Source of the DNA: Hymenobacter canadensis
GTDB taxonomy: Bacteria; Bacteroidota; Bacteroidia; Cytophagales; Hymenobacteraceae
DNA length: 64,000 nucleotides
Direction of reading: 5' to 3'
NCBI RefSeq assembly: GCF_027359925.1
Contig: NZ_CP114767.1
Location: forward strand, 4,266,501 to 4,330,500
In this document: positions 47,505 through 60,600 of the stretch, piece by piece
Layout: the number at the start of each line of letters is the position of its first letter
Numbering within the stretch: position 1 is the stretch's first letter
The notes under the pieces: generated by a model
Database searches by the model: none
What the model was told of the DNA's origin: nothing
The model's input: the letters and a program-made list of their open reading frames with translations, nothing else
Position numbers and translations under genes: made by a program

Positions 47505-48161
47505 CTACGCTTCCTCTACCGGCTCGCCGCCGTTAATCATGTCCGATGTAATACCGGGCTCGTCGGTTACCTCGGCGCGGAACACGCCCACGATGTGCGC
47601 CACCACGAAGGCCAGCACCACGTACATCGAGAATTCGTGGATTTCCTTCATTGTGTGCTCGATGCTGCGGAAGTTGTCTTCGAACACCAGGATGATGCCC
47701 GTCACCACCATCACGGCCAGCACCACATAGAAGGCGCGGTAGCTGTAGCGCACCCACACGGCTTTGGTTGAGCCCGGCTCGCCGGCGGCCACGCGGCTCT
47801 TTAGGCGGGCCAGCTTGGCGGCGGTGCGCTGCCCGCCCCGCTGCCGGAAGCTCACCAGCACGCGGAAAGCCAGCAGCACCGAAATCGTAATGCCAATCCA
47901 GATATGCCAGTCCCAGATACGGTGCGCCACGATGCGCGTGAGGCCGCGCAGCTTGTCGGGCGCAATGGCCACGCCCTGGTCGGCCAGCACCTTGCTGAAC
48001 TCCGGCGCCAGCGTCTTCACCTTCACGATGACGAACAGAAACAGAATCGTCATCAGCTGAGCCAGCACGAGGCCGGAATTGGCCCAGTGCCAGATGCGCA
48101 AGCCCAGCGAATTGCGTTTGGGGCCCGTAGTGATAGGCGAAGAAGGAGTGGTAGAAGCCAT
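47505..48161 (-). CDS. Membrane cytochrome b (b561/Ni-Fe hydrogenase b-type domain)
   Basis: 218 residues with four predicted transmembrane helices. Candidate heme-ligand histidines are in GLRIWHWANSGLVLAQ (helix 1), AHRIWDWHIWIGITI (helix 2), and MKEIHEFSMYVVLAFVVAHI (last helix). This layout fits the cytochrome b/b6 family that hands electrons between quinones and partner oxidoreductases. No partner gene is adjacent. The start at 48161 is chosen by the helix pattern; the longer frame from 48260 is rejected. Confidence 0.8.
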   Translation of the reverse strand: MASTTPSSPITTGPKRNSLGLRIWHWANSGLVLAQLMTILFLFVIVKVKTLAPEFSKVLADQGVAIAPDKLRGLTRIVAHRIWDWHIWIGITISVLLAFRVLVSFRQRGGQRTAAKLARLKSRVAAGEPGSTKAVWVRYSYRAFYVVLAVMVVTGIILVFEDNFRSIEHTMKEIHEFSMYVVLAFVVAHIVGVFRAEVTDEPGITSDMINGGEPVEEA

Positions 48162-48378
48162 AGTGTGGAGTAGGGAGCGAGCAATAATGCCCGTAATGTA
48201 CACGCTTATGCCTGCAACCTCACCAATTGAGCGGTTTTTCGGGGCAGATTCCCGCACCATTCCCGCCGGACACCGGCCATTTACGTATGCTGCCTGTTGG
48301 AACGCATGCTAAACCTTTCGGGCGGCATAGAGTTATACCTTCTCGCACTTTTCTGCTTACTCACTTACCTACCAAACC

Positions 48379-49419
48379 ATGACTGCAGCCAAAGGCTACG
48401 CCGCTCACACGGTAAACGCTCCCCTCGCTCCTTTCGATTTTGAGCGCCGCGACGTCGGCCCGCATGATGTGCGCATTGAAATTCTGTTCTGTGGCGTGTG
48501 TCACTCCGACGTGCACCAAGTGCGCGACGAGTGGGGCGGCTCCATCTTCCCAATGGTGCCCGGCCACGAAATCGTGGGCCGCGTGACCGAAGTGGGTGCC
48601 CACGTAAAAGGCTTCAAGGCCGGCGACCTGGCCGGTGTCGGCTGCATGGTGGACTCGTGCCAGCACTGCACCGAGTGCAACGACGGCCTGGAGCAGTACT
48701 GCGACAACGGCTTCGTGGGCACGTATAACGCCAAAGACAAGGATGGCTCCGTGACTTACGGTGGCTATTCCAACAGCATTGTGGTAACGGAGAAATTCGT
48801 GCTGCACGTGTCTGAGAAGCTGGACCTGGCCCGCGTGGCGCCGCTGCTGTGCGCCGGCATCACCACCTGGTCGCCGCTGCGCCAGTGGAACGCTAAGAAA
48901 GGCGACCGGGTAGCCGTGATGGGCCTCGGTGGCCTGGGCCACATGGCCGTGAAATTTGCCGCCGCTATGGGCTGCGAAGTAACCGTGCTCAGCACCTCGC
49001 CTTCCAAGGAAGAAGATGCCAAAGCCCTGGGCGCCCACAAATTCGTGGTGACCAAGGACCCCGCTGCCATGAAAGGCATCAGCAACTACTTCGACCTGAT
49101 CATCAACACCGTGTCGGCCCCGATGGACCTGACGCCCTATGTGGCCAGCCTGCGCCTCGACGGCACGATGGTCCTGCTGGGCGTGCCACCAGAAGCGCCG
49201 CAGCTGCACGCCTTCAACCTGATTGCCAAGCGCCGCCGCATTGCCGGCTCGCTGATTGGCGGCATCCAGGAAACTCAGGAAATGCTGGACTTCTGCGCCG
49301 AGCACAACGTGATGAGCGACGTGGAGGTAATCCGCATGGACTACATCAACGAAGCCTACGAGCGGATGATGAAGTCTGACGTGAAGTACCGCTTCGTCAT
49401 CGACCTGGCCACGATTTAA
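48379..49419 (+). CDS. Zinc-dependent NAD(P) alcohol dehydrogenase (cinnamyl-alcohol type)
   Basis: 346 residues, medium-chain dehydrogenase. The catalytic zinc site is CGVCHSDVH (33-41), with GHEIVGRV and Cys in DLIINTV-side region. The structural zinc lobe is CMVDSCQHCTECNDGLEQYC (four or more Cys). The cofactor loop is VMGLGGLGHMAVKFA. It resembles YahK/Adh6-type aldehyde reductases with broad substrate range. A single gene, ending at a palindromic element that also works as a terminator. Confidence 0.9.
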   Translation: MTAAKGYAAHTVNAPLAPFDFERRDVGPHDVRIEILFCGVCHSDVHQVRDEWGGSIFPMVPGHEIVGRVTEVGAHVKGFKAGDLAGVGCMVDSCQHCTECNDGLEQYCDNGFVGTYNAKDKDGSVTYGGYSNSIVVTEKFVLHVSEKLDLARVAPLLCAGITTWSPLRQWNAKKGDRVAVMGLGGLGHMAVKFAAAMGCEVTVLSTSPSKEEDAKALGAHKFVVTKDPAAMKGISNYFDLIINTVSAPMDLTPYVASLRLDGTMVLLGVPPEAPQLHAFNLIAKRRRIAGSLIGGIQETQEMLDFCAEHNVMSDVEVIRMDYINEAYERMMKSDVKYRFVIDLATI

Positions 49420-49440
49420 GCACTGACGAAAAAAAAGCCT

Positions 49441-49540
49441 GTCATCCTGAGCGGAGCGAAGGACCTTATTGCAGACGAACGACACGCGTAACAACGGCTC
49501 GTTCTAACGAAATAAGGTCCTTCACTCCGCTCAGGATGAC
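49441..49540. repeat. Interspersed palindromic element, type A (copy 5), terminator-like
   Basis: 100 bp with exact ends GTCATCCTGAGCGGAGCGAA / TCCGCTCAGGATGAC. The pairing is extended outward by AAAAAAGCCT and AGGCTTTTT, so the whole element (about 49430-49549) is a giant bidirectional terminator hairpin between convergent genes. Confidence 0.92.
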
Positions 49541-49561
49541 AGGCTTTTTCGTGCGTATTAC

Positions 49562-50050
49562 TTACTCCTTTTCCACCGGGTACTGAAACTCGCCTTCCAG
49601 CGTGAAGCGGCGGCCACCGCGGCCGGCCTCGCACACCTGGCAGCGGTAGGTGCCGCGCAGCCAGTGCCGTGTGGCATCCACCCCGCTGATAACGACGGTG
49701 CCCGTGTTCTGCCCGCACGATTTGGAGTAGGCCGCTACCGGCCCGAAGCGGTACGAGGCGTCGCGGTTGCGGCCGCTCAGGATTTCCTGGAAGCTGTAGG
49801 TGCCCGCCTGGATGGGAAACCGGTCGATGATGATGGTCAGGCCTTCGCCGTCGGGGTCGTCGGCGCGCACCACGTTCAGGCGCAGGGCGCGGTCCTCACT
49901 CAAGAAGAATCGGGAACTGCTGGTGTCGGCCTTCACGGCCTCACCGTTGATGCGCATCGTGAGCTGCCGGGTTGATTCGGGCAGGGCGGCGGGCCGTTTC
50001 GGGACTAGGCCGAGCAGGGGCAGGAGCAGGAGAGGAAGCAGGCGGTTCAT
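49562..50050 (-). CDS. Secreted protein of unknown function
   Basis: 162 residues from MNRLLPLLLLPLLGLVPKRP (signal peptide). The mature part is beta-rich: LTMRINGEAVKAD, then GEGLTIIIDRFPIQAGTYSF and a Cys pair in RGTYRCQVCEAG. The pattern resembles small Bacteroidota DUF6252-like beta-sandwich proteins, but I cannot assign it. Monocistronic between two palindromic elements. Confidence 0.6.
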   Translation of the reverse strand: MNRLLPLLLLPLLGLVPKRPAALPESTRQLTMRINGEAVKADTSSSRFFLSEDRALRLNVVRADDPDGEGLTIIIDRFPIQAGTYSFQEILSGRNRDASYRFGPVAAYSKSCGQNTGTVVISGVDATRHWLRGTYRCQVCEAGRGGRRFTLEGEFQYPVEKE

Positions 50051-50093
50051 GGGCGGGGCAGGGCAACAATCAGCCCAGAAGATACGCAATGCC

Positions 50094-50248
50094 GTCATTC
50101 CGAGCGGAGCGAGGAATCTCGCGTGCTGACGTTCTAGAGCTAATCAGTACCGTTGCGGCGAAGCAAAAGAGATGCTTCGGCTTCGCTCAGCATGACAATT
50201 GCTTTGGCAACATCAGCACGCGAGATTCCTCGCTCTGCTCGGAATGAC
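50094..50248. repeat. Composite palindromic element, type D outer arms
   Basis: 155 bp. The outer arms GTCATTCCGAGCGGAGCGAG and TCGCTCTGCTCGGAATGAC pair, followed by GAATCTCGCGTGCTGA and its complement. The centre contains an unpaired half of a type B/C element (GAGATGCTTCGGCTTCGCTC then AGCATGAC), so the copy is a mosaic. Its inner arm CAACATCAGCACGCGAGAT is shared with the nested element at 45030-45174. Confidence 0.88.
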
Positions 50249-50287
50249 TTTCTGATAGAATGACGTGCCTTATTCGCGCTGGTCAGC

Positions 50288-51487
50288 TTACGCCAGCGTG
50301 CGGCCGGGGTACTGCTCCAAAGCGGCGGCGAGGCAGTCCATGGCCTGGCCGATGACTTCCTGGTTGACCACGTAGGCCAGGCGCACCTGCTGGCGGCCCA
50401 GGCCGGGCGTGGCGTAGAAGCCCGAGGCCGGCGAAATCATCAGCGTCTGGCCGTGGTGGCTGAAGCTTTCCAGCAGCCACTGCGCAAACCGGTCGGCATC
50501 GTCTACGGGCAGGTGGGCAATGACGTAGAACGCGCCGCTGGGCGTGGGCACCTGCACGCCGGGCATCTCACGCAGGCGGCGCAGCATCAGGTCGCGGCGG
50601 GCCAAATACTCGGCTTTGGTATGGTCGAAGTAGGTGTCGGGCAGGTCGGCGGCGGCTTCGGCCAGCAGCTGGCCCAGACCCGGCGGGCTCACCCGCAGCT
50701 GCGCCAGCTTGAAAAATACGTCGCGCAGGGCCCGGTTCTTCGTGACGATGGCCCCGATACGGGCTCCGCAGGCGCTGTAGCGCTTCGAGATGGTGTCGAG
50801 CAGCACGATGTGGTCGTCGGCGCCGTGCAGGTGCAGGGCGCTGGTGTACTCGGCGTCGTAGCAGAACTCGCGGTAGGCTTCGTCGGAAAGCAGGTAGAGG
50901 TGGTGGCGCAGGCACAGGTCCTTGAGCTGCTCCATTTCCTGGCGGCTATACACGTAGCCGGTGGGGTTGTTGGGGCTGCAGATCAGGATGGCCTTGGTAC
51001 GGGGCGTGATTTTGCGCTCGAACTCCGCAATGGGCGGCAGGGCGAAGTTGTCTTCCAGACGGGACGTAACGGCTACCACGTGGGTGCCCGTGGCCACCGC
51101 AAACGCCGAGTAGGGCCCGTAGAACGGCTCCGGTACAATGAACTCGTCGCCGGGATTGAGGCAGCCCAGCAGCGCAAACGAAATTGCCTCGCTGCCGCCG
51201 GTCGTCACCAGCACGTCGTCGGCCACTACCGGCAAACCCAGGCGCTGGTAGTAGTCGGCCAGCTTGTAGCGGTAGCTGAGGTAGCCGGCCGTGGGGCTGT
51301 ATTCCAGCACCTGAATGGCTGCCCGCTGCACGGCCGCCAGCATGGCCGGCGGGGTTTCGATGTCGGGCTGGCCGATGTTGAGCGGGTGCACCACCAGGCC
51401 GCGCTGGCGGGCGGCATCGGCGTAGGGCGTGAGTTTGCGGTACGGAGAAGCGGGCAGAGCCACGCCGCGCTGAGAAAGCTGAAGCAT
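50288..51487 (-). CDS. Class I/II pyridoxal-phosphate aminotransferase
   Basis: 399 residues from MLQLSQRGVALPASPYRKLT. The PLP Schiff-base lysine is in LLDTISKRYSACGARIG. ICSPNNPTGYVYSRQEM and SDEAYREFCYD provide the Asn, Asp and Tyr contacts. It fits the aspartate/tyrosine aminotransferase group, but the amino-acid donor cannot be told from sequence. The ATG at 51487 is preferred; an upstream reading would overlap the divergent DinB gene. Confidence 0.9.
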   Translation of the reverse strand: MLQLSQRGVALPASPYRKLTPYADAARQRGLVVHPLNIGQPDIETPPAMLAAVQRAAIQVLEYSPTAGYLSYRYKLADYYQRLGLPVVADDVLVTTGGSEAISFALLGCLNPGDEFIVPEPFYGPYSAFAVATGTHVVAVTSRLEDNFALPPIAEFERKITPRTKAILICSPNNPTGYVYSRQEMEQLKDLCLRHHLYLLSDEAYREFCYDAEYTSALHLHGADDHIVLLDTISKRYSACGARIGAIVTKNRALRDVFFKLAQLRVSPPGLGQLLAEAAADLPDTYFDHTKAEYLARRDLMLRRLREMPGVQVPTPSGAFYVIAHLPVDDADRFAQWLLESFSHHGQTLMISPASGFYATPGLGRQQVRLAYVVNQEVIGQAMDCLAAALEQYPGRTLA

Positions 51488-51598
51488 GGTCTTAAAGATA
51501 GGCCAGCCCACGCAAAACCCGGCCAGTATCGGCGGAAAAACCCGCGTCCGGCCCCGCTGCGCCCCAACCCGCGGCCCGCTTCGGCAGTTACAGCCGGT

Positions 51599-52126
51599 AT
51601 GAACTATCCCGCGTCTCTCCCGGAACACTGGCTACGTGGCCCGCTGCCGGGCTTCTCCCCGCTGCTGCTGCCCTTGGCCCACGCCCTGCTGCAGGCCCGC
51701 GACGAAGTAGCCACTGCCCTGCACGACTTCCCCGACCACCTGCTGGGCGCGCGGCCGGCCGGCATGGCCTCGGTGGGGTTCCATCTGCGTCACCTGGCCG
51801 GCGTGCTCAGCCGCATGCAGACCTACACCGCCCATCAGCCCCTGACCGAAGAGCAGTTCCGCTACCTCGCCGCCGAAACCACGGATGATGCCGCCGCCAG
51901 CGCCCCCTCGCTGCTGCGGCAGTTTGGAGAGGCCGTGGAGCAGATGCTGGCCACACTGCGCAGCACGCCGGAAGCCACCCTGCCGGATTTCCGGCCGGTG
52001 GGGCGGCAGGCGCTGCCCAGCACCGTCATGGGTTTGCTCACGCACGCCGCCGAGCATACCACCCGCCACACCGGCCAGCTCCTCGTGACGGCCCGCGTGG
52101 TGCAGGCCGCCGCCATGCATCCGTAA
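51599..52126 (+). CDS. DinB/YfiT-family four-helix protein
   Basis: 175 residues. The metal-binding histidines expected for DinB folds are present in SVGFHLRHLAG (helix 2) and LLTHAAEHTTRHTGQL (helix 4). These proteins include thiol-dependent S-transferases; the function here is unknown. It is divergent from the aminotransferase with 111 bp between starts and ends at a strong terminator. Confidence 0.82.
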   Translation: MNYPASLPEHWLRGPLPGFSPLLLPLAHALLQARDEVATALHDFPDHLLGARPAGMASVGFHLRHLAGVLSRMQTYTAHQPLTEEQFRYLAAETTDDAAASAPSLLRQFGEAVEQMLATLRSTPEATLPDFRPVGRQALPSTVMGLLTHAAEHTTRHTGQLLVTARVVQAAAMHP

Positions 52127-52127
52127 C

Positions 52128-52157
52128 AAAAAAAGGGCCCCGATGCGGGGCCCTTTT
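52128..52157. terminator. Bidirectional terminator
   Basis: AAAAGGGCCCCG-ATG-CGGGGCCCTTTT: a perfect stem with a 3-nt loop and A/T tails, between convergent DinB and astacin genes. Confidence 0.93.
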
Positions 52158-52193
52158 CTGTGCGGGCGGCTGCTGTGCCGGCCGGCTCAGGCG

Positions 52194-53054
52194 CTAGTAC
52201 ATAGCGTCGATGCCGGATTTGTCGCCGGCCGACAGGCCAGTGCGCTGGATGTTGAAGGTCGAGCCGTCTTTGCGGGTGATGGTAGGCTGGCCGTTCGAGG
52301 AAAACGAGAACGAGCCGTACATCATGATGGAGCCGAAGTCGAGCACGCCGTAGTCGGTGCCGCCGTAGCCCAGGCCCGAGTACTTGGTGAAGTTGCCTTC
52401 GTAGCCGGCCTGAATGTTCTGGGTGAGGATGTTCACGTAGGTGTCCCGGTCGTTGCGGGTCTGCTCGTGGAACAGGCCCAGCGCGTGCCCGATTTCGTGG
52501 ATGGTGTTGCCCGTGGAGCAGCCCGAAGCCAGGTTGATGTACTGGCGGCTGCCGATCATGCCGATGTTGGACGAGCAGCCCGAGCCCACCCGGAACGTTA
52601 CGTAGCTGGTCTGGGTGGTGCGGCGCACGAAACGTACCGGCGAGTTGGCCTGCCAGTGCGCAATGGCATCCGTCACGCGGGCCTGGTTGGGCAGGGCGGT
52701 ATCAATGGTGTAGTACACCACGCCCGACGGCCAGCGGCCGGTGGTACGGCCGGCGCTGCCGGGGCGGCCGGCGTCCTGGCCCTGGCTGGCTTCTACTTGC
52801 TCCTGCGTGAGCAGAATGTCACCCTCGTACACTTTCTCGCCGTTGATTTCCTGGTAGCTGATGGGCTGGCCGCCCCATTCGCCGGCCTTGGCGGCACCGG
52901 ACTGGCCGGGGTAGGCTTCCTCGGCTTTGGCATCCTGGGCCTGCTCCAACTGAGCCGGCTGGTTGGCATTGTCCTGATCCTTGTTGCAACCGGTTAGCGA
53001 AATAGTGCTAAGTGCTACTGCGGCGCCTAGCCCAAAAAATGAATACTTACGCAT
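52194..53054 (-). CDS. Astacin-family (M12) lipoprotein metalloprotease
   Basis: 286 residues from MRKYSFFGLGAAVALSTISL. The lipobox is LTGC (Cys23), so it is a membrane-anchored lipoprotein. The zinc site is H186-EIGH-190 plus His196 in ALGLFHEQTRNDRD, the full HEXXHxxGxxHE of astacins. The Met-turn is SIMMYGSFS (about 242-250). Four cysteines in the middle probably form disulfides. It degrades proteins or peptides in the envelope; targets unknown. No T9SS tail. Confidence 0.92.
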   Translation of the reverse strand: MRKYSFFGLGAAVALSTISLTGCNKDQDNANQPAQLEQAQDAKAEEAYPGQSGAAKAGEWGGQPISYQEINGEKVYEGDILLTQEQVEASQGQDAGRPGSAGRTTGRWPSGVVYYTIDTALPNQARVTDAIAHWQANSPVRFVRRTTQTSYVTFRVGSGCSSNIGMIGSRQYINLASGCSTGNTIHEIGHALGLFHEQTRNDRDTYVNILTQNIQAGYEGNFTKYSGLGYGGTDYGVLDFGSIMMYGSFSFSSNGQPTITRKDGSTFNIQRTGLSAGDKSGIDAMY

Positions 53055-53316
53055 GGGAAAAGAGGTTTGGTTGTGGATGGCTGGATAACGAGCAACGAAA
53101 AAGAAATATTCCATCGAAAGTGAAAAAAATAAATTTCATGGAATAGTATAAGATGAATCGGCGCCGTCGGCTGGGTGTTGCCGGACTGCCCGGCGAGCCA
53201 AGCAACGCCCGGCAGCGGCGCGCTGTCCCTGCTGCGCCGCATTTTCAGCAAACACCGGACGGTTGGCACAAATTTTGGAACTGGTCAGGAACTATTTTTC
53301 CTCTTTCATTATCGCC

Positions 53317-54054
53317 ATGAAACACGCCCTACTCCTCGCGCTATCTGCTACGGCCATGCTGTTCTCGGCCTGCGCCAAAGACGACGACCTGCCCGCACCA
53401 GCGGCACCCGTAACCCCGCCCATTGCGAATGCCGGCTACGTGCGGGTGGTCAACAACCTGGCCGTGCGCCCCGGCAGCAACGTGCAGCAGGGCCCCGTGC
53501 AACTGCAGGTGGACTTTCAGCCGCTGGGGCCTGCTACCGCCATTGCTACGGCATCGCCCTATCAGGCCCTGTCGGCCGGCGAGCGGGCTGTGCAGGTGGC
53601 GCTGCCCGTCAGCTCCGGCTCCGGCTGGGTTTCGTTCAGCCGGCTGCCGATTGCCAAAGACCAGCGCTACTCTTTGTTCACGTACAGCAACGGCAGCCAG
53701 ACATCGGCGCGGGTAGTGCAGGAGGCGGCGCTGCCGGCTCCCGTGGCCGGCAAGGCCCAGCTGCGGGTGCTCAACCTGGCCGCCGAATCCACGCCGGTGC
53801 GCATTGAGGAGTCGGCCGCGCCTGCTGCTCTCTACCCGGAAGTGGCCTGGAGCTCCATCACTGGCTATCAGGCCGTGGATGCGCGCACCTACACGCTTTA
53901 CGCCTCCCGCACCAACGGCAACTACGACCCGCTGTTCAACCAGGCCGTGACGCTGGTGCCCGGCAAAGCCTACACCCTGGTGCTGCGCGGTAGCAACTAT
54001 CCTGATGTCGTAGCCCCCGAGAAACTGGCCTTCGACCTGATAGAGGACGAATAA
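53317..54054 (+). CDS. DUF4397-domain lipoprotein
   Basis: 245 residues. The signal peptide with lipobox FSAC (about Cys19) is followed by AKDDD, the acidic residues after the lipid Cys that often favour outer-membrane/surface display in Bacteroidota. Two DUF4397-like beta units follow, with patterns GYVRVVNNLAVRPG and AQLRVLNLAAESTPVRI, each ending near a Y-x-L-Y/F strand (TYTLYAS). Function unknown. Confidence 0.75.
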   Translation: MKHALLLALSATAMLFSACAKDDDLPAPAAPVTPPIANAGYVRVVNNLAVRPGSNVQQGPVQLQVDFQPLGPATAIATASPYQALSAGERAVQVALPVSSGSGWVSFSRLPIAKDQRYSLFTYSNGSQTSARVVQEAALPAPVAGKAQLRVLNLAAESTPVRIEESAAPAALYPEVAWSSITGYQAVDARTYTLYASRTNGNYDPLFNQAVTLVPGKAYTLVLRGSNYPDVVAPEKLAFDLIEDE

Positions 54055-54067
54055 TATCCGCTTCCCC

Positions 54068-54110
54068 AAAACCGAAACAGGGCACCCGCCGGGTGCCCTG
54101 TTTCGGTTTT
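54068..54110. terminator. Perfect 20-bp terminator hairpin
   Basis: AAAACCGAAACAGGGCACCC-GCC-GGGTGCCCTGTTTCGGTTTT: a perfect stem with a 3-nt loop just after the DUF4397 gene. Terminates rightward; A-tails allow leftward use too. Confidence 0.93.
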
Positions 54111-54136
54111 ACGCTTCGCACGCGCTCGGCTGTTCT

Positions 54137-54196
54137 CCGCACTCGCTCGGCTGTGCCGAGTGAGTCCTACGCCTGAGGGGCTGTGCCCCGAATCCG
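54137..54196 (+). repeat. REP unit, left copy flanking the RAYT gene
   Basis: 60 bp with two hairpins, CTCGGC-TGT-GCCGAG and GGGGC-TGT-GCCCC. On the minus strand GTAG (54170-54167) sits 5' of the larger stem, as in known RAYT-linked REPs. It is inverted relative to 54951-55010 with 56 of 60 identical bases. A partial copy of the first hairpin precedes it (54117-54134). Confidence 0.9.
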
Positions 54197-54242
54197 GCCG
54201 CGCCGTCGTGGCAGGCGCACGCAGCATAGCTACTTGAGCGTA

Positions 54243-54272
54243 TTGCTCACTAAGCGGATTCAGCTATCTTTT
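54243..54272 (+). promoter_or_regulatory. Predicted RAYT promoter
   Basis: TTG (54243-54245), 19 nt, TATCTTTT (54265-54272), one base off TANNTTTG. The box ends 4 nt before the ATG, so the mRNA may be leaderless, as predicted for other genes here. Confidence 0.55.
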
Positions 54273-54276
54273 CCTC

Positions 54277-54807
54277 ATGTCTGAGCTGCGCAAAACATAT
54301 CCTGGAGGCCTATTCTTCCTGACGCTGACCGTGGTAGGATGGGTAGATGTATTTATCCGGCCGCAATACACGGAAATCATCATTGATAGCCTCCGCTACT
54401 GCCAGCAGCATAAAGGCCTCGAAATCTACGCCTACGTGGTGATGAGCAGCCACATTCACCTGATTGCGGCCCGTACGGAAGGTAACCTTAGCGACGTGCT
54501 GCGCGACCTGAAGGCGCACACCGCCCGGCAGTTACTCAAAGCCATTGCCGAAAATGAGCAGGAAAGTCGCCGGGAATGGATGATGCGGCTTTTCGCCTAC
54601 TATGCCCGCCCGCAACGCCAAAACGAACAGTATATGTTCTGGCAGAAAACTACCTTCCCCATTGCCCTCTGGACGCCTGCCGTCGTGCAGCAGAAGCGGG
54701 ATTATATCCACAACAACCCTGTAGCCGCTGGTCTTGTCACGGCTCCTGAGCACTACCCTTTGAGCAGTGCTTGCTATTTCAGTCCGTTGCAAACGTTGCC
54801 GTTGTAG
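54277..54807 (+). CDS. REP-associated tyrosine transposase (RAYT, TnpA-REP type)
   Basis: 176 residues, an IS200/IS605-like Y1 HUH nuclease of the single-copy RAYT group. HUH motif: H59-I-H61 in VVMSSHIHLIA. The C-terminal helix carries the candidate catalytic Tyr143 in RDYIHNNPVAAGLV, followed by HYPLSS as in the family. It cuts and rejoins single-stranded REP hairpins (known for E. coli RAYT). It is intact and sits between inverted 60-bp REP units, so it looks able to act on them. It is not a classical IS: there are no subterminal left/right ends of the IS200 kind. Confidence 0.9.
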   Translation: MSELRKTYPGGLFFLTLTVVGWVDVFIRPQYTEIIIDSLRYCQQHKGLEIYAYVVMSSHIHLIAARTEGNLSDVLRDLKAHTARQLLKAIAENEQESRREWMMRLFAYYARPQRQNEQYMFWQKTTFPIALWTPAVVQQKRDYIHNNPVAAGLVTAPEHYPLSSACYFSPLQTLPL

Positions 54808-54861
54808 CGGCTGGTGCTCTGGCGTTGCCTACGCTGTTGCAGTTGCCGCACCGCCGTACTG

Positions 54862-54921
54862 CCGCACTCGCTCGGCTATGCCGAGTGAGGATTACGCTCA
54901 AGCAGCTGTGTTGCGCGCGTC
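54862..54921 (+). repeat. REP unit, middle copy (diverged)
   Basis: Same orientation as the left copy. The first hairpin CTCGGC-TAT-GCCGAG is intact, and the second is changed to GCAGC-TGT-GTTGC. The tetranucleotide on the minus strand is GTAA instead of GTAG. With the right copy it forms an inverted REP pair 29 bp apart, a BIME-like unit. Confidence 0.85.
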
Positions 54922-54950
54922 TGCCACGGCGGCGCGGACGGGGCGCGGAC

Positions 54951-55010
54951 GGATTCGGGGCATAGCCCCTCAGGCGTAGTACTAACTCGGCATAGCCGAG
55001 CGAGTGCGGA
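54951..55010 (-). repeat. REP unit, right copy (inverted)
   Basis: 60 bp reading CGGATTCGGGGCATAGCCCC at its left end and AGCCGAGCGAGTGCGG at its right end: the reverse complement of the left unit with four changes. The loops TGT/TAT differ, but stems are kept. GTAG is at 54977-54980, 5' of the larger hairpin. Confidence 0.9.
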
Positions 55011-55189
55011 GTGCCGTTGTATTCTGGCCTATAGCTGGAGTAGCTGTAGAGGCTACCGCAACAGCTGTTACTATTTGAAAAAGGGTACGCATGGAGCGAA
55101 GAGGATTTGGAAATTATTCTTGGGTTGAGTTGGTCACTGGTTGAGAGGTGTTAAGCTCGCGCCAGATGGGATATAAGTTGAAATAAAAT

Positions 55190-56152
55190 TTATTGACCTG
55201 GTTTGTATAAAAAATGATACCATTTATTGATGAATTCTGGCTCTTTAATGGATATTTTTTCAATAGAAGATTTGAAGAATTCTATGTTATTAGATAATGC
55301 ATTGCAATACTGATGTATGAATTCGCCCAGGTTTTTATTTTTAAAGGCAATATCGGTAAATTTATGAGTTGTTGATTTACTGCTAATTGCTAAATTTATG
55401 CAATCCGAATCATTTAAATGCCCGCCCTGTATTATCCCTTCTACTAGAGGTCTAACAAATTCATTTTGATGATATGTTAGATCAGTTGTATTTGATCTTG
55501 AATCATAAAAATCCAAAGTCACCTTGTCAATAAGCGTGAATAATCTGTCTAGTTTGTATATGGAATTTCCATTGTATGTTTGATATTTGATTTTATTGGC
55601 TTTTTTTGAAAATTCATCAGCTAAGTCAGCAAATAGCTTAACATATTCTGTTTTTAAGACATGTACTTCCTTTATGTCACGATCTGTCTGGTCATTGATG
55701 TTCTTAAATGATTCTGAATAGAAGTCTATGTATTTATAGATGTCGTGTATAGTTTTTGTTGCGTTATTATCTTGAAATGATAAAAATATGTGATGCATTT
55801 TCTCATGACTTATTTTTTCTAGCCTAAATAGAGGAATGGTTGGATATGAATTTAGTATATGTGATTCATAAGGTTGTTTAATTATTTTGTTTGCATAATC
55901 TGTTAGTATTAAAATTTGCGATTCGATGAATTTTACCGCATCATTCAAAACAAGTTGAAAATATTCTGTATCAGCTTTGCTTTGTTTGTATTCGTTGAAT
56001 ATTTTTATATCCTTATCTCTTTGTATTTGCAACCAATATACGAATATTGCTCCTCCTGCTCCTAATGCAGCGCCTATTGCTGCTGTTGTAATTTCTTGAA
56101 GAAAAGATGAATCCGCAGAAAGGAACTCTCCATTTTGAAATATTATATCCAT
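55190..56152 (-). CDS. AT-rich membrane-anchored coiled-coil protein, unknown function
   Basis: 320 residues with very AT-rich codon use, unlike the surroundings, so probably acquired. An N-terminal segment (about 18-42, EITTAAIGAALGAGGAIFVYW) is a predicted transmembrane helix, followed by Lys-rich helical and coiled-coil segments (QIQRDKDIKIFNEYKQSKAD). The C-terminal half is helical, without recognised motifs. It follows the REP/RAYT block by 180 bp. Single-gene cargo of this kind is often defence-related, but nothing here shows that directly. Confidence 0.6.
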   Translation of the reverse strand: MDIIFQNGEFLSADSSFLQEITTAAIGAALGAGGAIFVYWLQIQRDKDIKIFNEYKQSKADTEYFQLVLNDAVKFIESQILILTDYANKIIKQPYESHILNSYPTIPLFRLEKISHEKMHHIFLSFQDNNATKTIHDIYKYIDFYSESFKNINDQTDRDIKEVHVLKTEYVKLFADLADEFSKKANKIKYQTYNGNSIYKLDRLFTLIDKVTLDFYDSRSNTTDLTYHQNEFVRPLVEGIIQGGHLNDSDCINLAISSKSTTHKFTDIAFKNKNLGEFIHQYCNALSNNIEFFKSSIEKISIKEPEFINKWYHFLYKPGQ

Positions 56153-56171
56153 TGTTATACATGGTTATAAT

Positions 56172-56209
56172 AGAAACAGCGCTGGAAAATTAATCCCAGC
56201 GCTGTTTCT
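56172..56209. terminator. Terminator between icd and the AT-rich gene
   Basis: AGAAACAGCGCTGG / CCAGCGCTGTTTCT: a perfect 14-bp stem with a 10-nt AT-rich loop. It lies just after the icd stop in the direction of icd transcription. Confidence 0.8.
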
Positions 56210-56225
56210 ATTGGTAACAGATCTA

Positions 56226-57491
<1,266 letters not shown>

Positions 57492-57548
57492 TGTTGAAGG
57501 TACTTTGGACTGTAGGTTTTTAGTTGTGTGGCTCAAGCCGCTTCGTCT

Positions 57549-57644
57549 GTCATCCTGAGCGGAGCGAAGGACCTTATCACGGCTGAATTACTACCGAACG
57601 ATTCGTTCTGGCGTGATAAGATCCTTCGCTCCGCTCAGGATGAC
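57549..57644. repeat. Interspersed palindromic element, type A (copy 6)
   Basis: 96 bp. The arms GTCATCCTGAGCGGAGCGAA / TTCGCTCCGCTCAGGATGAC are exact over 20 bp and continue AGGACCTTATCACG / CGTGATAAGATCCT. It lies between M16 and icd. Confidence 0.93.
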
Positions 57645-57663
57645 GGGCGGGACAGGCGGCGTT

Positions 57664-60600
57664 CTAATACCCGAAAATCTCTTCCAGGGTAAGTTGCTGG
57701 ACCTGGCCGTACTTGGCCAGCTCCTTGAAATTGAGGCGGTCTTTGGAGCCTATCACCAGAATGGTCTGGTTCTGGCCTTTCACGCGGGCCTGCTGAAACT
57801 TCTGCAGGTCCTGGAAGCTCATGTTGGGCGTCTGCTCATACACGTCGCGGCGCAGATCGTAGTCGAGGCCGAGGCGGCGGGCACGCTCGTAGCTGAGCAG
57901 GATGTCGGCCTTGGTGATGCGCTCCGTGGCGATGCTGTTGCGGATAGCGTTCTTGGCGATTTGCAGGTTGGCTTCGGCCACGGGCATGTCGTTGAGCAGG
58001 GTGTTCATGCCGGCCATGGCCTCGGGCAGCTTGTCGCTCTGCGTGCCGATGTAGCTGAGGTTGTAGCTGCTGCGGCCGGCCTTGTCGGCGTTGGCGTAGC
58101 GCGACGAGGCCGAGTAGGCCAGGGCCTTGCTCTCGCGCAGCTCCTGAAACACGATGCTGCCCATGCTACCTCCGAAATACTCGTTGTAGAGGCTAGTAGT
58201 CGGCACCAGGGTTTTGTCGTAGAGGGTGCCTTTGGTCAGGAACAGGATTTCGGCCTGCACCATGTTGTAGTCCACCCAATACACCTTGCGCTGGTTCATA
58301 GCCTGCTCCGCGAAATCCTTAGCCGCCGGGGTAGGGGTGAGCTTAGCCGGGCCGCGGTGGTATTTTTGTAAGGCATCTGTTATGCCTGGCAGAATTATTA
58401 CAAGGTTGTCTGGGTATTTCTTACTCTCTTCTAAAGACGCCTTACTGTCTTCGGTATTAACAGGTCGCGGCCCGTAGTACAGCACGCGGTGCTGGTAGGT
58501 CGGGATGGTTTTGATGGTGGCGGTGAGCTGCTCGGGTTTCAGGGCCTTTAGTTCTTTCTCACTCAGCTGCGTGGTGAAGGGGTTTTGGGGGCCGTACTTG
58601 GCGAAGTTCACCATGGCTTGGCTCAGAATCACCTGCTTGTTGAGCTTGGCATCCTGACGCGACTTCAGCACGCCAGCCACCATGTTCTTGAGGGCGGCGG
58701 CATCGGGCTTGGGCGCGGCCAGCAAGCTCTCAAATAGCTGCAGCGCCTTTTCGAAGTTGCTGTCGAGGCCGGAGAGGCTGACGGTGGTGCGGTCCTGCCC
58801 GCTCTGCACCGCGAAGGAGCAACCCAGCTTGTAGAACTCCTGCTGCAGCTGCGCGGCCGTGTATTTGTCGGTGCCCAGGTACTGCAGGTAGTCGGTGGCG
58901 AGGCCCAGCTTGGGGTCGTTGTTGGTGCCCAGGTCGAGCACGTAGAACAGGTTGAAGAGGTTGTTTTCGGTGTTGTGGGTGTAGTACACCGGCATGCCCG
59001 AAGCCAGCTTCACTTCCTGAATGTCCTTCTTGTAATCCACGAACACCGGCTGCAGCTCGGGGCTGCTCAGGCCGGTTACCTGCTTGTAGAAGTCGGAGGC
59101 CACTTCGCGGTTCACGGGCACCGGCGTAATAGCCGGCTTCACCACTTTCACGGCGTTGGCATCTTTGCCGGTGCGCTTGTAGATGGCCGCGTAGCCGGGG
59201 CCATAATACTGCTGCGCCACCCGCATCACCTCTTCCTTGGTGATGGTGCCGAAGTCGTCAATCTGCTTCAGGTAGTCCTTCCAGTCCTCGCGGGCCACGA
59301 AAGCCGCCACAAAGGCGCCGGCGCGGGCCTCGTTGTTTTCGTAGCTTTTGGTGCGCTGCAACTGCTCGTTGTTGATGATGGCCGGAATCAGCCAGTCGGG
59401 GAAGTCGCCCTTTTTCACCTTGTCGAGCTGGGCGAGCAGCAGGTCGCGCACCTCTTCCAGCTTCTGGCCCTGGCGGGGCGTCGCGTAGAGGATGTGCGAA
59501 GAGTAGTCGTTGTTGATGTCGGTGAACGAAGCGGCCTGCAACACCTTCTGTTGCTGGTTGAGGTTCAGGTCAATCAGACCGGCCTGGCCGTTGCTCAGGA
59601 GCTTGTCCACCATGCGCAGCACCAGCGCCTCGCGGGTGGTCGTGCCGGGGAAGCGGAAGCCGAGCATCACGTTTTCGGCGTCGGGCCCCACAATCTGCGT
59701 CACGAGGGGTGCCGTGATGGGGGCTTCCTGGGCGGGCGTGAAGGCCGGCACCGGCTTGCTCTGCAGCTTGCCGAAATACTGGTCGATTACGCGGATGGTC
59801 TGGTCGTAGTCCAGGTCGCCGCTGAGGCAGAGGGCCACGTTGTTGGGCACGTAGTATTTGTCGAAATACCGTTTAATCTCCGTGATGGACGGGTTTTGCA
59901 GGTGCTCGATGGTGCCGATGGTGGTCTGGGTGCCGTACTCGTGCTTCTGATAGAGGCTGCGGTTCAGGGCCTCGTACTGCTTGCTGAAGTCGTTGTCGAG
60001 GCCGCGGTTTTTCTCCTCGTACACGGCTTCCAGCTCGGTGTGGAACAGGCGCGGCACCATCTCGCCCAGCCGCTCGCTCTGGATGGCGGCCCACTTCTCC
60101 AGCTGGTTGCTCGGAATATCCTCTTGGTACACCGTCTGCTCCACCGAGGTGTAAGCGTTGGAGCCCTTGGCCCCGATGGCGCCCATCACCTTGTCGTACT
60201 CATTCGCCACGGCGTACTTGGCCGCCACGCCGGAAATCGAGTCGATCTGGTGGTAGGTGCGCTTGCGGGCGGCGGGGTCGTTGCGCTGGGCGCGGTACTG
60301 CTCGTAGAGCGCCTCAATCTTGGTCAACTCCGCTTTTTCGGCCTGCCAGTTCTGCGTGCCCAGCTTGGAAGTGCCCTTGAACACCATGTGCTCGAGGTAA
60401 TGCGCGAGGCCGGTGGCAGTAGCCGGGTCATTTTTGGAGCCGGCGCGCACGGCTAAGTAGGTCTGGATGCGCGGTGCGTCGTCGTAGTCGGAGAGGTAGA
60501 CGGTCAGGCCGTTATCCAGCGTGTAGATGCGCGCTTTGAGCGGGTCGCCTTCCACGGTTTGGTACTGGTATTCCTTCTGCTTGGGCGCTTCCGGGCTGGT

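Follow-up and report, generated by a model that had tools for sequence, protein, structure and literature searches.

Background

Among the TnpA_REP proteins, or REP-associated tyrosine transposases (RAYTs), those of the Bacteroidetes have been placed in subclass 2.6, which has been equated with Bertels's group 5 (Quentin et al. 2018, PMC6006769). The passages of that paper devoted to the subclass describe its REPs as 'atypical', with little structure and no GT[AG]G. For the E. coli REP, the relevant part of PMC8266576 describes the mismatches A12A13-G26C27, in which C27 is contacted by K82 of the protein. Both a long-hairpin and a clover fold are raised for REPINs in the sections of Bertels and Rainey (2011, PMC3116915) that deal with them. 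In the open-access literature we found no paper on REPs in Hymenobacter, none that was relevant by its title on RAYTs in the genus, and for TnpAREP in Bacteroid only PMC6006769; among the matches listed, no title pointed to a two-hairpin unit in Bacteroidota beyond PMC6006769, PMC8266576, PMC3116915, PMC3733652 and PMC2817692.

Here we describe a RAYT locus of Hymenobacter canadensis, analyzed within a 64,000-nt stretch of its genome (the window). A first-pass annotation had proposed a REPtron in a Bacteroidota genome, and this is borne out by a RAYT, flanking REPs and dispersed copies. With a probability of roughly 0.8, we read the locus as a REPtron of TnpA_REP subclass 2.6, in which a vertically inherited, single-copy RAYT of the Y1 HUH type acts in trans on small non-autonomous elements.

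Results

The RAYT gene and its protein

Features of the locus are given below in window coordinates.

54137..54254, plus strand: left REPIN/BIME copy, second outer hairpin lost
54142..54164, minus strand: left outer hairpin, CTC-A-CTCGGC-ACA-GCCGAG-C-GAG (3 bp, A x C, 6 bp, 3-nt loop)
54167..54170, minus strand: left foot, GTAG, 2 nt from the basal stem
54177..54189, minus strand: left inner hairpin, GGGGC/GCCCC
54221..54250, plus strand: decayed second half of the left copy, with inner hairpin GCAGC/GCTAC, GTAT in the place of the foot and the outer hairpin absent
54277..54807, plus strand: RAYT / TnpA_REP gene, an ORF of 176 aa with HUH at H59-I60-H61, W122-Q123, Y143 in YIHNNP, and S163-S164
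54862..55009, minus strand: right REPIN/BIME copy, full, in the orientation opposite to the left copy
54867..54889, minus strand: right outer hairpin a, CTC-A-CTCGGC-ATA-GCCGAG-C-GAG
54892..54895, minus strand: right foot a, GTAA
54902..54914, minus strand: right inner hairpin a (GCAGC/GTTGC read on the plus strand)
54957..54969, plus strand: right inner hairpin b, GGGGC/GCCCC
54976..54979, plus strand: right foot b, GTAG
54982..55004, plus strand: right outer hairpin b, CTA-A-CTCGGC-ATA-GCCGAG-C-GAG, one basal pair mutated

The ORF confirms the earlier call of a complete RAYT with HUH at residues 59-61 and Tyr143 intact. Its product exceeds the cut-offs of the REP-associated tyrosine transposase model NF047646 (101.1 bits, cut-off 80) and of Y1_Tnp (29.1 bits, cut-off 23), and E. 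coli TnpA_REP (4er8) is a weak match to it (E 0.0037 with the single sequence, 2.1e-7 with a profile). In an alignment of 29 proteins that includes the window RAYT, both HUH histidines and the catalytic tyrosine are invariant, as is K79, the lysine preceding the position aligned to E. coli K82. The residue before the first HUH histidine is S or N throughout (SHIH in the window RAYT). At the K82-aligned residue itself the window clade has alanine, which was counted against the REPtron reading. Two relatives' RAYTs, at loci L028 and L032, are missing one HUH histidine, their motifs reading NQAH and SHLR, and given these losses some members of the family may be inactive.

A protein search of the H. 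canadensis genome found a single RAYT of the window kind, the second match being distant (32% over 64 residues). The second, distant RAYT (~197 aa; L016:1068-1944, contig C1, about 4237936-4238812) is flanked by REPs of its own, GTAACGCGAAGT-TCC-ACTTCGCG, arranged in inverted pairs that resemble the double-foot type of subclass 2.4. Similar double-foot pairs with GTAGCGCGAAC flank the RAYTs of loci L151 and L152. Our RAYT tree comprised 66 relatives (window included) and two outgroup RAYTs. The motifs of the window protein fit a subclass with flanking repeats, as expected of a RAYT in a REP-linked clade, an assignment that is one of motifs rather than of position in the published tree.

The flanking elements

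The 60-bp units at 54137-54196 and 54950-55009, previously described as reverse complements, agree at exactly 56 of 60 bases. The TGT/TAT loops, the GTAG/GTAA tetranucleotides and a third, diverged unit (from 54862 onward) were also as claimed, and the two-hairpin unit is indeed longer than the classical REP. Similarity between the flanks exceeds 60 bp, with 70-nt arms at 93% and 58-nt arms at 84%, and a fourth, decayed half-unit lies at about 54221-54250. Together, this decayed half and the third unit indicate that the real unit is a double element of ~148 nt, in which two two-hairpin units stand head to head with their feet inward as an inverted pair (REPIN/BIME). Its order is outer CTCGGC/GCCGAG, inner GGGGC/GCCCC, linker, inner GCAGC/GCTGC and outer CTCGGC/GCCGAG. 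With up to three mismatches, the unit core matches twice in the window versus 0.01 expected, and the outer stem-loop, with up to two, matches three times versus 0.51 expected.

Other repeats were observed in the window. Just outside the left element, 20 nt (54114-54133) repeat part of the element end, with 90% identity to the true end, and a perfect, terminator-like 21-bp inverted repeat with a 1-nt loop (54068-54110) follows the DUF4397 gene. A further family of palindromic repeats, comprising the CATCCTGAGCGGAGCGAAGGACC type and one related to it, occurs at 49435-49549, 50093-50255 and 57544-57647, with matches also in L046-L049.

Local hairpins and the long hairpin

Folds were compared on a sequence-only alignment of 74 elements with 500 shuffles; relatedness among the elements inflates both of the tests reported here. 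The four local hairpins are paired in 97.3% of 2049 cells, and 11 pairs and 93 cells are changed on both sides, versus shuffle means of 4.9 and 30.9 (reached in 0 of 500). The right outer hairpin has A x C in 70 of the 74 elements, and the left outer hairpin, on the other strand, has G x T in 72.

The selected fold could instead be one long hairpin formed by pairing both halves. For the right copy, energy minimization predicts this fold whichever strand is used (-51 and -55.5 kcal/mol, z -7.0 and -7.3), RNAalifold chose it as well, with the arms paired and two inner hairpins, and cross-arm changes exceed their own shuffles (91 cells changed on both sides versus 55.5, 0/500). Cross-arm pairing, however, reaches 86.2% overall and 71.0% in the inner helix, against the higher figure for the local hairpins. 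Nearly all element halves have C-G or G-C as their basal pair, and 13 of the 74 elements have halves with opposite basal pairs (C-G versus G-C), so that the local pairs hold while the cross-arm pair is broken. On covariation, and against the folding energy, we favour the clover of four local hairpins as the selected form and consider selection for the long hairpin quite unlikely.

Copies in the genome and across Hymenobacter

The objection that the unit has no other copies in the genome fails: the search proposed in the first-pass annotation, done at the DNA level, found five further element places, four full and one half, for a total of seven when the pair beside the RAYT is included. In H. 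citatus, H. rigui, H. piscis and H. metallilatus the RAYT is flanked by the same elements, and in H. gummosus and H. busanensis by diverged ones. A covariance model built from 15 elements has matches in 30 of the 101 genomes of the genus; up to 31 candidates were scored per genome, making per-genome counts lower bounds. The hairpin pattern, with one mismatch allowed, has matches in 29 of the 101, and the reversed pattern has two matches in total. RAYTs of the window clade (at least 93% identity to the window protein) occur in five genomes, all of which have elements, while RAYTs matching the window protein at 1e-10 occur in 41 and RAYTs in the wide sense (NF047646, E 1e-5) in 90. Sixteen of the 30 element-bearing genomes (G044, G030, G025, G060 and 12 others) have no RAYT that matches the window protein at 1e-10. 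These genomes speak against a simple one-to-one link between RAYT and element, and they were counted against the REPtron reading.

Elements in genomes without a window-clade RAYT might have been moved by another RAYT class. The element model matches 25 of these 96 genomes, some of which, such as G016, hold the elements of another clade, and mean element identity within RAYT-less G044 (0.824, nine elements) is near that within RAYT-carrying G059 (0.843, 19 elements). Among 23 loci searched, which covered part of the RAYTs in these genomes, strong element matches near a RAYT of another class were nevertheless confined to L151 and L152, whose RAYTs have their own double-foot REPs; L160 gave a weak match (E 0.0013) and L170 is of subclass 2.6. 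Loss of the RAYT with slow decay of the elements explains the pattern equally well, and we judge movement by another class to be unlikely. Elements in G044 and G079 that had been tied to a second RAYT class were taken as chance neighbours, because those RAYT genes have their own REPs.

History of the locus and mobility of the elements

The inverted flanking copies in the window would suit an IS-like transposon with long inverted ends, and the 874-bp block had been called 'self-contained'. As a moving block this did not hold up: the genome has one RAYT of the window kind, orthologues in five species lie near the same isocitrate dehydrogenase gene (a neighbourhood common to the window, L046, L047, L048, L049 and L051), and in L046, L047 and L049 the flanking copies stand as direct rather than inverted repeats. 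A self-moving block was rejected on RAYT copy number and synteny, and we regard it as highly improbable.

The RAYT lies near isocitrate dehydrogenase (PF00180) in the window, H. citatus, H. rigui, H. piscis, H. metallilatus and H. busanensis, the distance from isocitrate dehydrogenase to the nearest element being ~0.1 kb in H. rigui and H. piscis and ~0.5 to 1.2 kb in the others. In the 6.5 kb of the H. gummosus locus that was examined, there was no isocitrate dehydrogenase match. Compared with all five other species, the window RAYT is inverted relative to its neighbours; the flanking elements are inverted repeats in the window, direct in H. citatus, H. rigui and H. metallilatus, and mixed in H. 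piscis. Recombination between inverted elements would explain the flip of the window RAYT. Between the right element and isocitrate dehydrogenase, the window has a 320-aa ORF (55190-56152) of 30% GC (window 61%), which had no Pfam match and no blastn match in the loci of six relatives.

One clean empty site was found among the sites compared. An element of H. metallilatus (G077) is missing at the same site in H. rigui (G012), H. piscis (G092) and the H. canadensis genome, and the flanks join directly in H. rigui and H. canadensis. The insert measures 193-204 nt, element included, with no target duplication visible; because it exceeds the element in length, this case does not define the exact ends of the moving segment. 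Because the nearest relative and two others lack the element, its gain in G077 would be the simplest reading. Comparisons at L002, L003, L010 and L011 gave no decision. At L007 similarity to H. rigui extends through the left flank as far as the edge of the element and the right flank differs, and at L210 the flanks are without a clear counterpart. The L196 element is absent from G025 and G060, but with diverged flanks; that of L207 is common to G060 as well, and that of L208, together with one flank, is common to G012.

A shared hairpin rule and clade-specific feet

A pattern of 3 bp, A x C, 6 bp and a loop of 3-4 nt was scanned over 450 nt on each side of 68 distinct relatives' RAYT genes. 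There were 58 strict matches, which are not 58 independent events, in 23 of the 68 loci, versus 0.35 expected from shuffles and none in 125 control segments 900-1350 nt away; the contrast with the far controls was counted for the REPtron reading. The excess over the far control is located at the apical stem of 6 bp. Near the genes, no other mismatch was counted more than three times apart from G x T, most of whose 65 cases are these A x C hairpins read on the opposite strand. Of the 68 loci, 45 are without a strict A x C hairpin, several of them having perfect or otherwise bulged hairpins, and this was counted against the REPtron reading. Longer hairpins with internal loops of at least 2 nt, closer in shape to the E. 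coli REP, were seen in the flanks of L121 and L135.

On the RAYT tree, the strict hairpins require at least 10 label changes versus 19 for shuffled labels; they are clustered, but over several clades and not one. They occur in records named Hymenobacter, Chitinophaga, Chryseolinea, Marinifilum, Saprospiraceae and Flammeovirgaceae. Among 18 example hairpins there are 15 different apical stems, all starting with C, and all basal stems end with C. When all loci were examined with a C-A-C core required, 191 distinct hairpins were obtained. In 160 of them a second hairpin occurs in the 42 nt preceding the foot, and in 15 one follows the unit; shuffled upstream stretches (one plain shuffle each) have a second hairpin in 26 of 191.

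The foot sits 2 nt from the outer-hairpin stem. Feet were read on copies found by foot-free hairpin patterns, restricted to exact hairpins rather than every pattern match. Window-type feet are GTAG in 66 of 105 cases, ATAG in 13 and GTAA in 12, whereas CGCGTC-type feet (G091, G016) are CCGG in 11 of 12. Feet of the CGGGSC type are ATAG in 14 of 29 and, within that type, CACC in four of seven in G052. In the Chitinophaga genome reached via L069 there are 10 pattern matches, many with an upstream hairpin, and no foot tetranucleotide is common to the 10. The shared unit consists of an inner hairpin, a short gap, the foot, 2 nt and the outer hairpin (3 bp, A x C, 6 bp, 3-4-nt loop), and its stems and foot differ by RAYT clade, dispersed copies included.

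We offer tentatively, at a little below even odds, the proposal that subclass-2.6 RAYTs read a modular substrate, in which a constant handle is combined with a swappable address, the foot tetranucleotide 2 nt away, that is recoded clade by clade. The handle would be the mismatched hairpin (C-A-C...G-C-G core) with the second hairpin, a composition we hold just as tentatively, and the addresses would be GTAG, ATAG, CCGG and perhaps CACC.

The elements could also be kept for an RNA or chromosomal role, such as a terminator or mRNA end protection, and not as mobile DNA. Elements from genomes that lack any RAYT match to the window protein remain highly paired (mean 96.7%, 29 elements), compared with 98.0% (35 elements) in genomes with a window-clade RAYT and 94.5% (seven elements) in those with only another subclass-2.6 RAYT. 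In 37 of 40 cases no open frame runs through the element and 120 nt on either side, versus 26 of 80 flanking windows, a weak test because the elements carry their own stops. Such a role would, however, leave the constant foot spacing unaccounted for, and it sits poorly with the H. metallilatus insertion and with the correspondence between RAYT clade and element type at the RAYT genes. Rfam has no match within 48000-60000 of the window, which speaks of absence from that library only. We consider maintenance for an RNA or chromosomal role very unlikely, and continue with the REPtron reading.

Discussion

In the REPtron that we envisage, the element would become single-stranded, for example on the lagging strand, and fold into local hairpins. 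The RAYT would bind the mismatched outer hairpin and the foot, cleave nearby through Tyr143 and move the inverted pair to a new site without target duplication. The foot and the inner hairpin would both have roles in this process, which would operate in trans.

For a subclass whose REPs had lacked a definition, the family supplies a structural consensus, together with matched pairs of protein and foot and an evolutionary vote for local hairpins. These bear on questions left by the parts of PMC8266576 and PMC3116915 discussed here, namely cleavage-site choice by TnpA_REP and the REPIN as a long hairpin versus separate hairpins. Should the cleavage or target site be chosen by the foot, in the manner of the IS608 guide sequences, the clades would be a natural set of re-targeted single-strand transposases.

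The locus differs from IS200/IS605 elements in that its transposase is single copy in the genome, not present as several near-identical copies, and has YIHNNP rather than Y---Q; the IS200 model NF033573 scores 23.8 bits against a cut-off of 55. As in REPINs, as these are presented in sections of PMC3116915, an inverted REP pair is dispersed and associated with a RAYT that is presumed to act in trans; unlike them, the element here has four hairpins, is ~148 nt long and is low in copy number (seven places).

The likeness to proteobacterial RAYT/REP pairs suggested by the first-pass annotation is upheld for the GTAG foot, but the nearest published class is the Bacteroidetes subclass 2.6 and not the proteobacterial groups. 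The E. coli REP (group 2 / subclass 2.2; PDB 4er8) shares with the window a GTAG foot and a Y1 HUH enzyme and, by the numbering in the relevant part of PMC8266576, A12 faces C27, the A lying toward the foot and the C toward the 3' end as here. It differs in that the unit described here has one A x C mismatch, set between a basal stem of 3 bp and an apical stem of 6 bp, as well as 2 nt separating the foot from the stem and a second, 5' hairpin. The protein motifs given for subclass 2.2 (DHLH, WE, YIHYNP) also differ from those of the window RAYT.

Set against the description of subclass 2.6 in the text of PMC6006769, the window RAYT agrees in length (176 aa, median 179), in HuH-Y distance (82, median 82), in its WQ, YIH[QN]NP (as YIHNNP) and SS motifs and in its Bacteroidetes host, and, as described there, secondary structures flank the gene and have copies elsewhere in the genome. 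Its HuH motif is SHIH, not NH[LIV]H, a difference at a consensus position and not at a catalytic residue. The REPs also differ, having a fixed architecture with GTAG as the commonest window-type foot, where the published account has no GT[AG]G. Compared with that text description, rather than with the paper's REP tables, what appears to be new here is a defined REP architecture for a known subclass.
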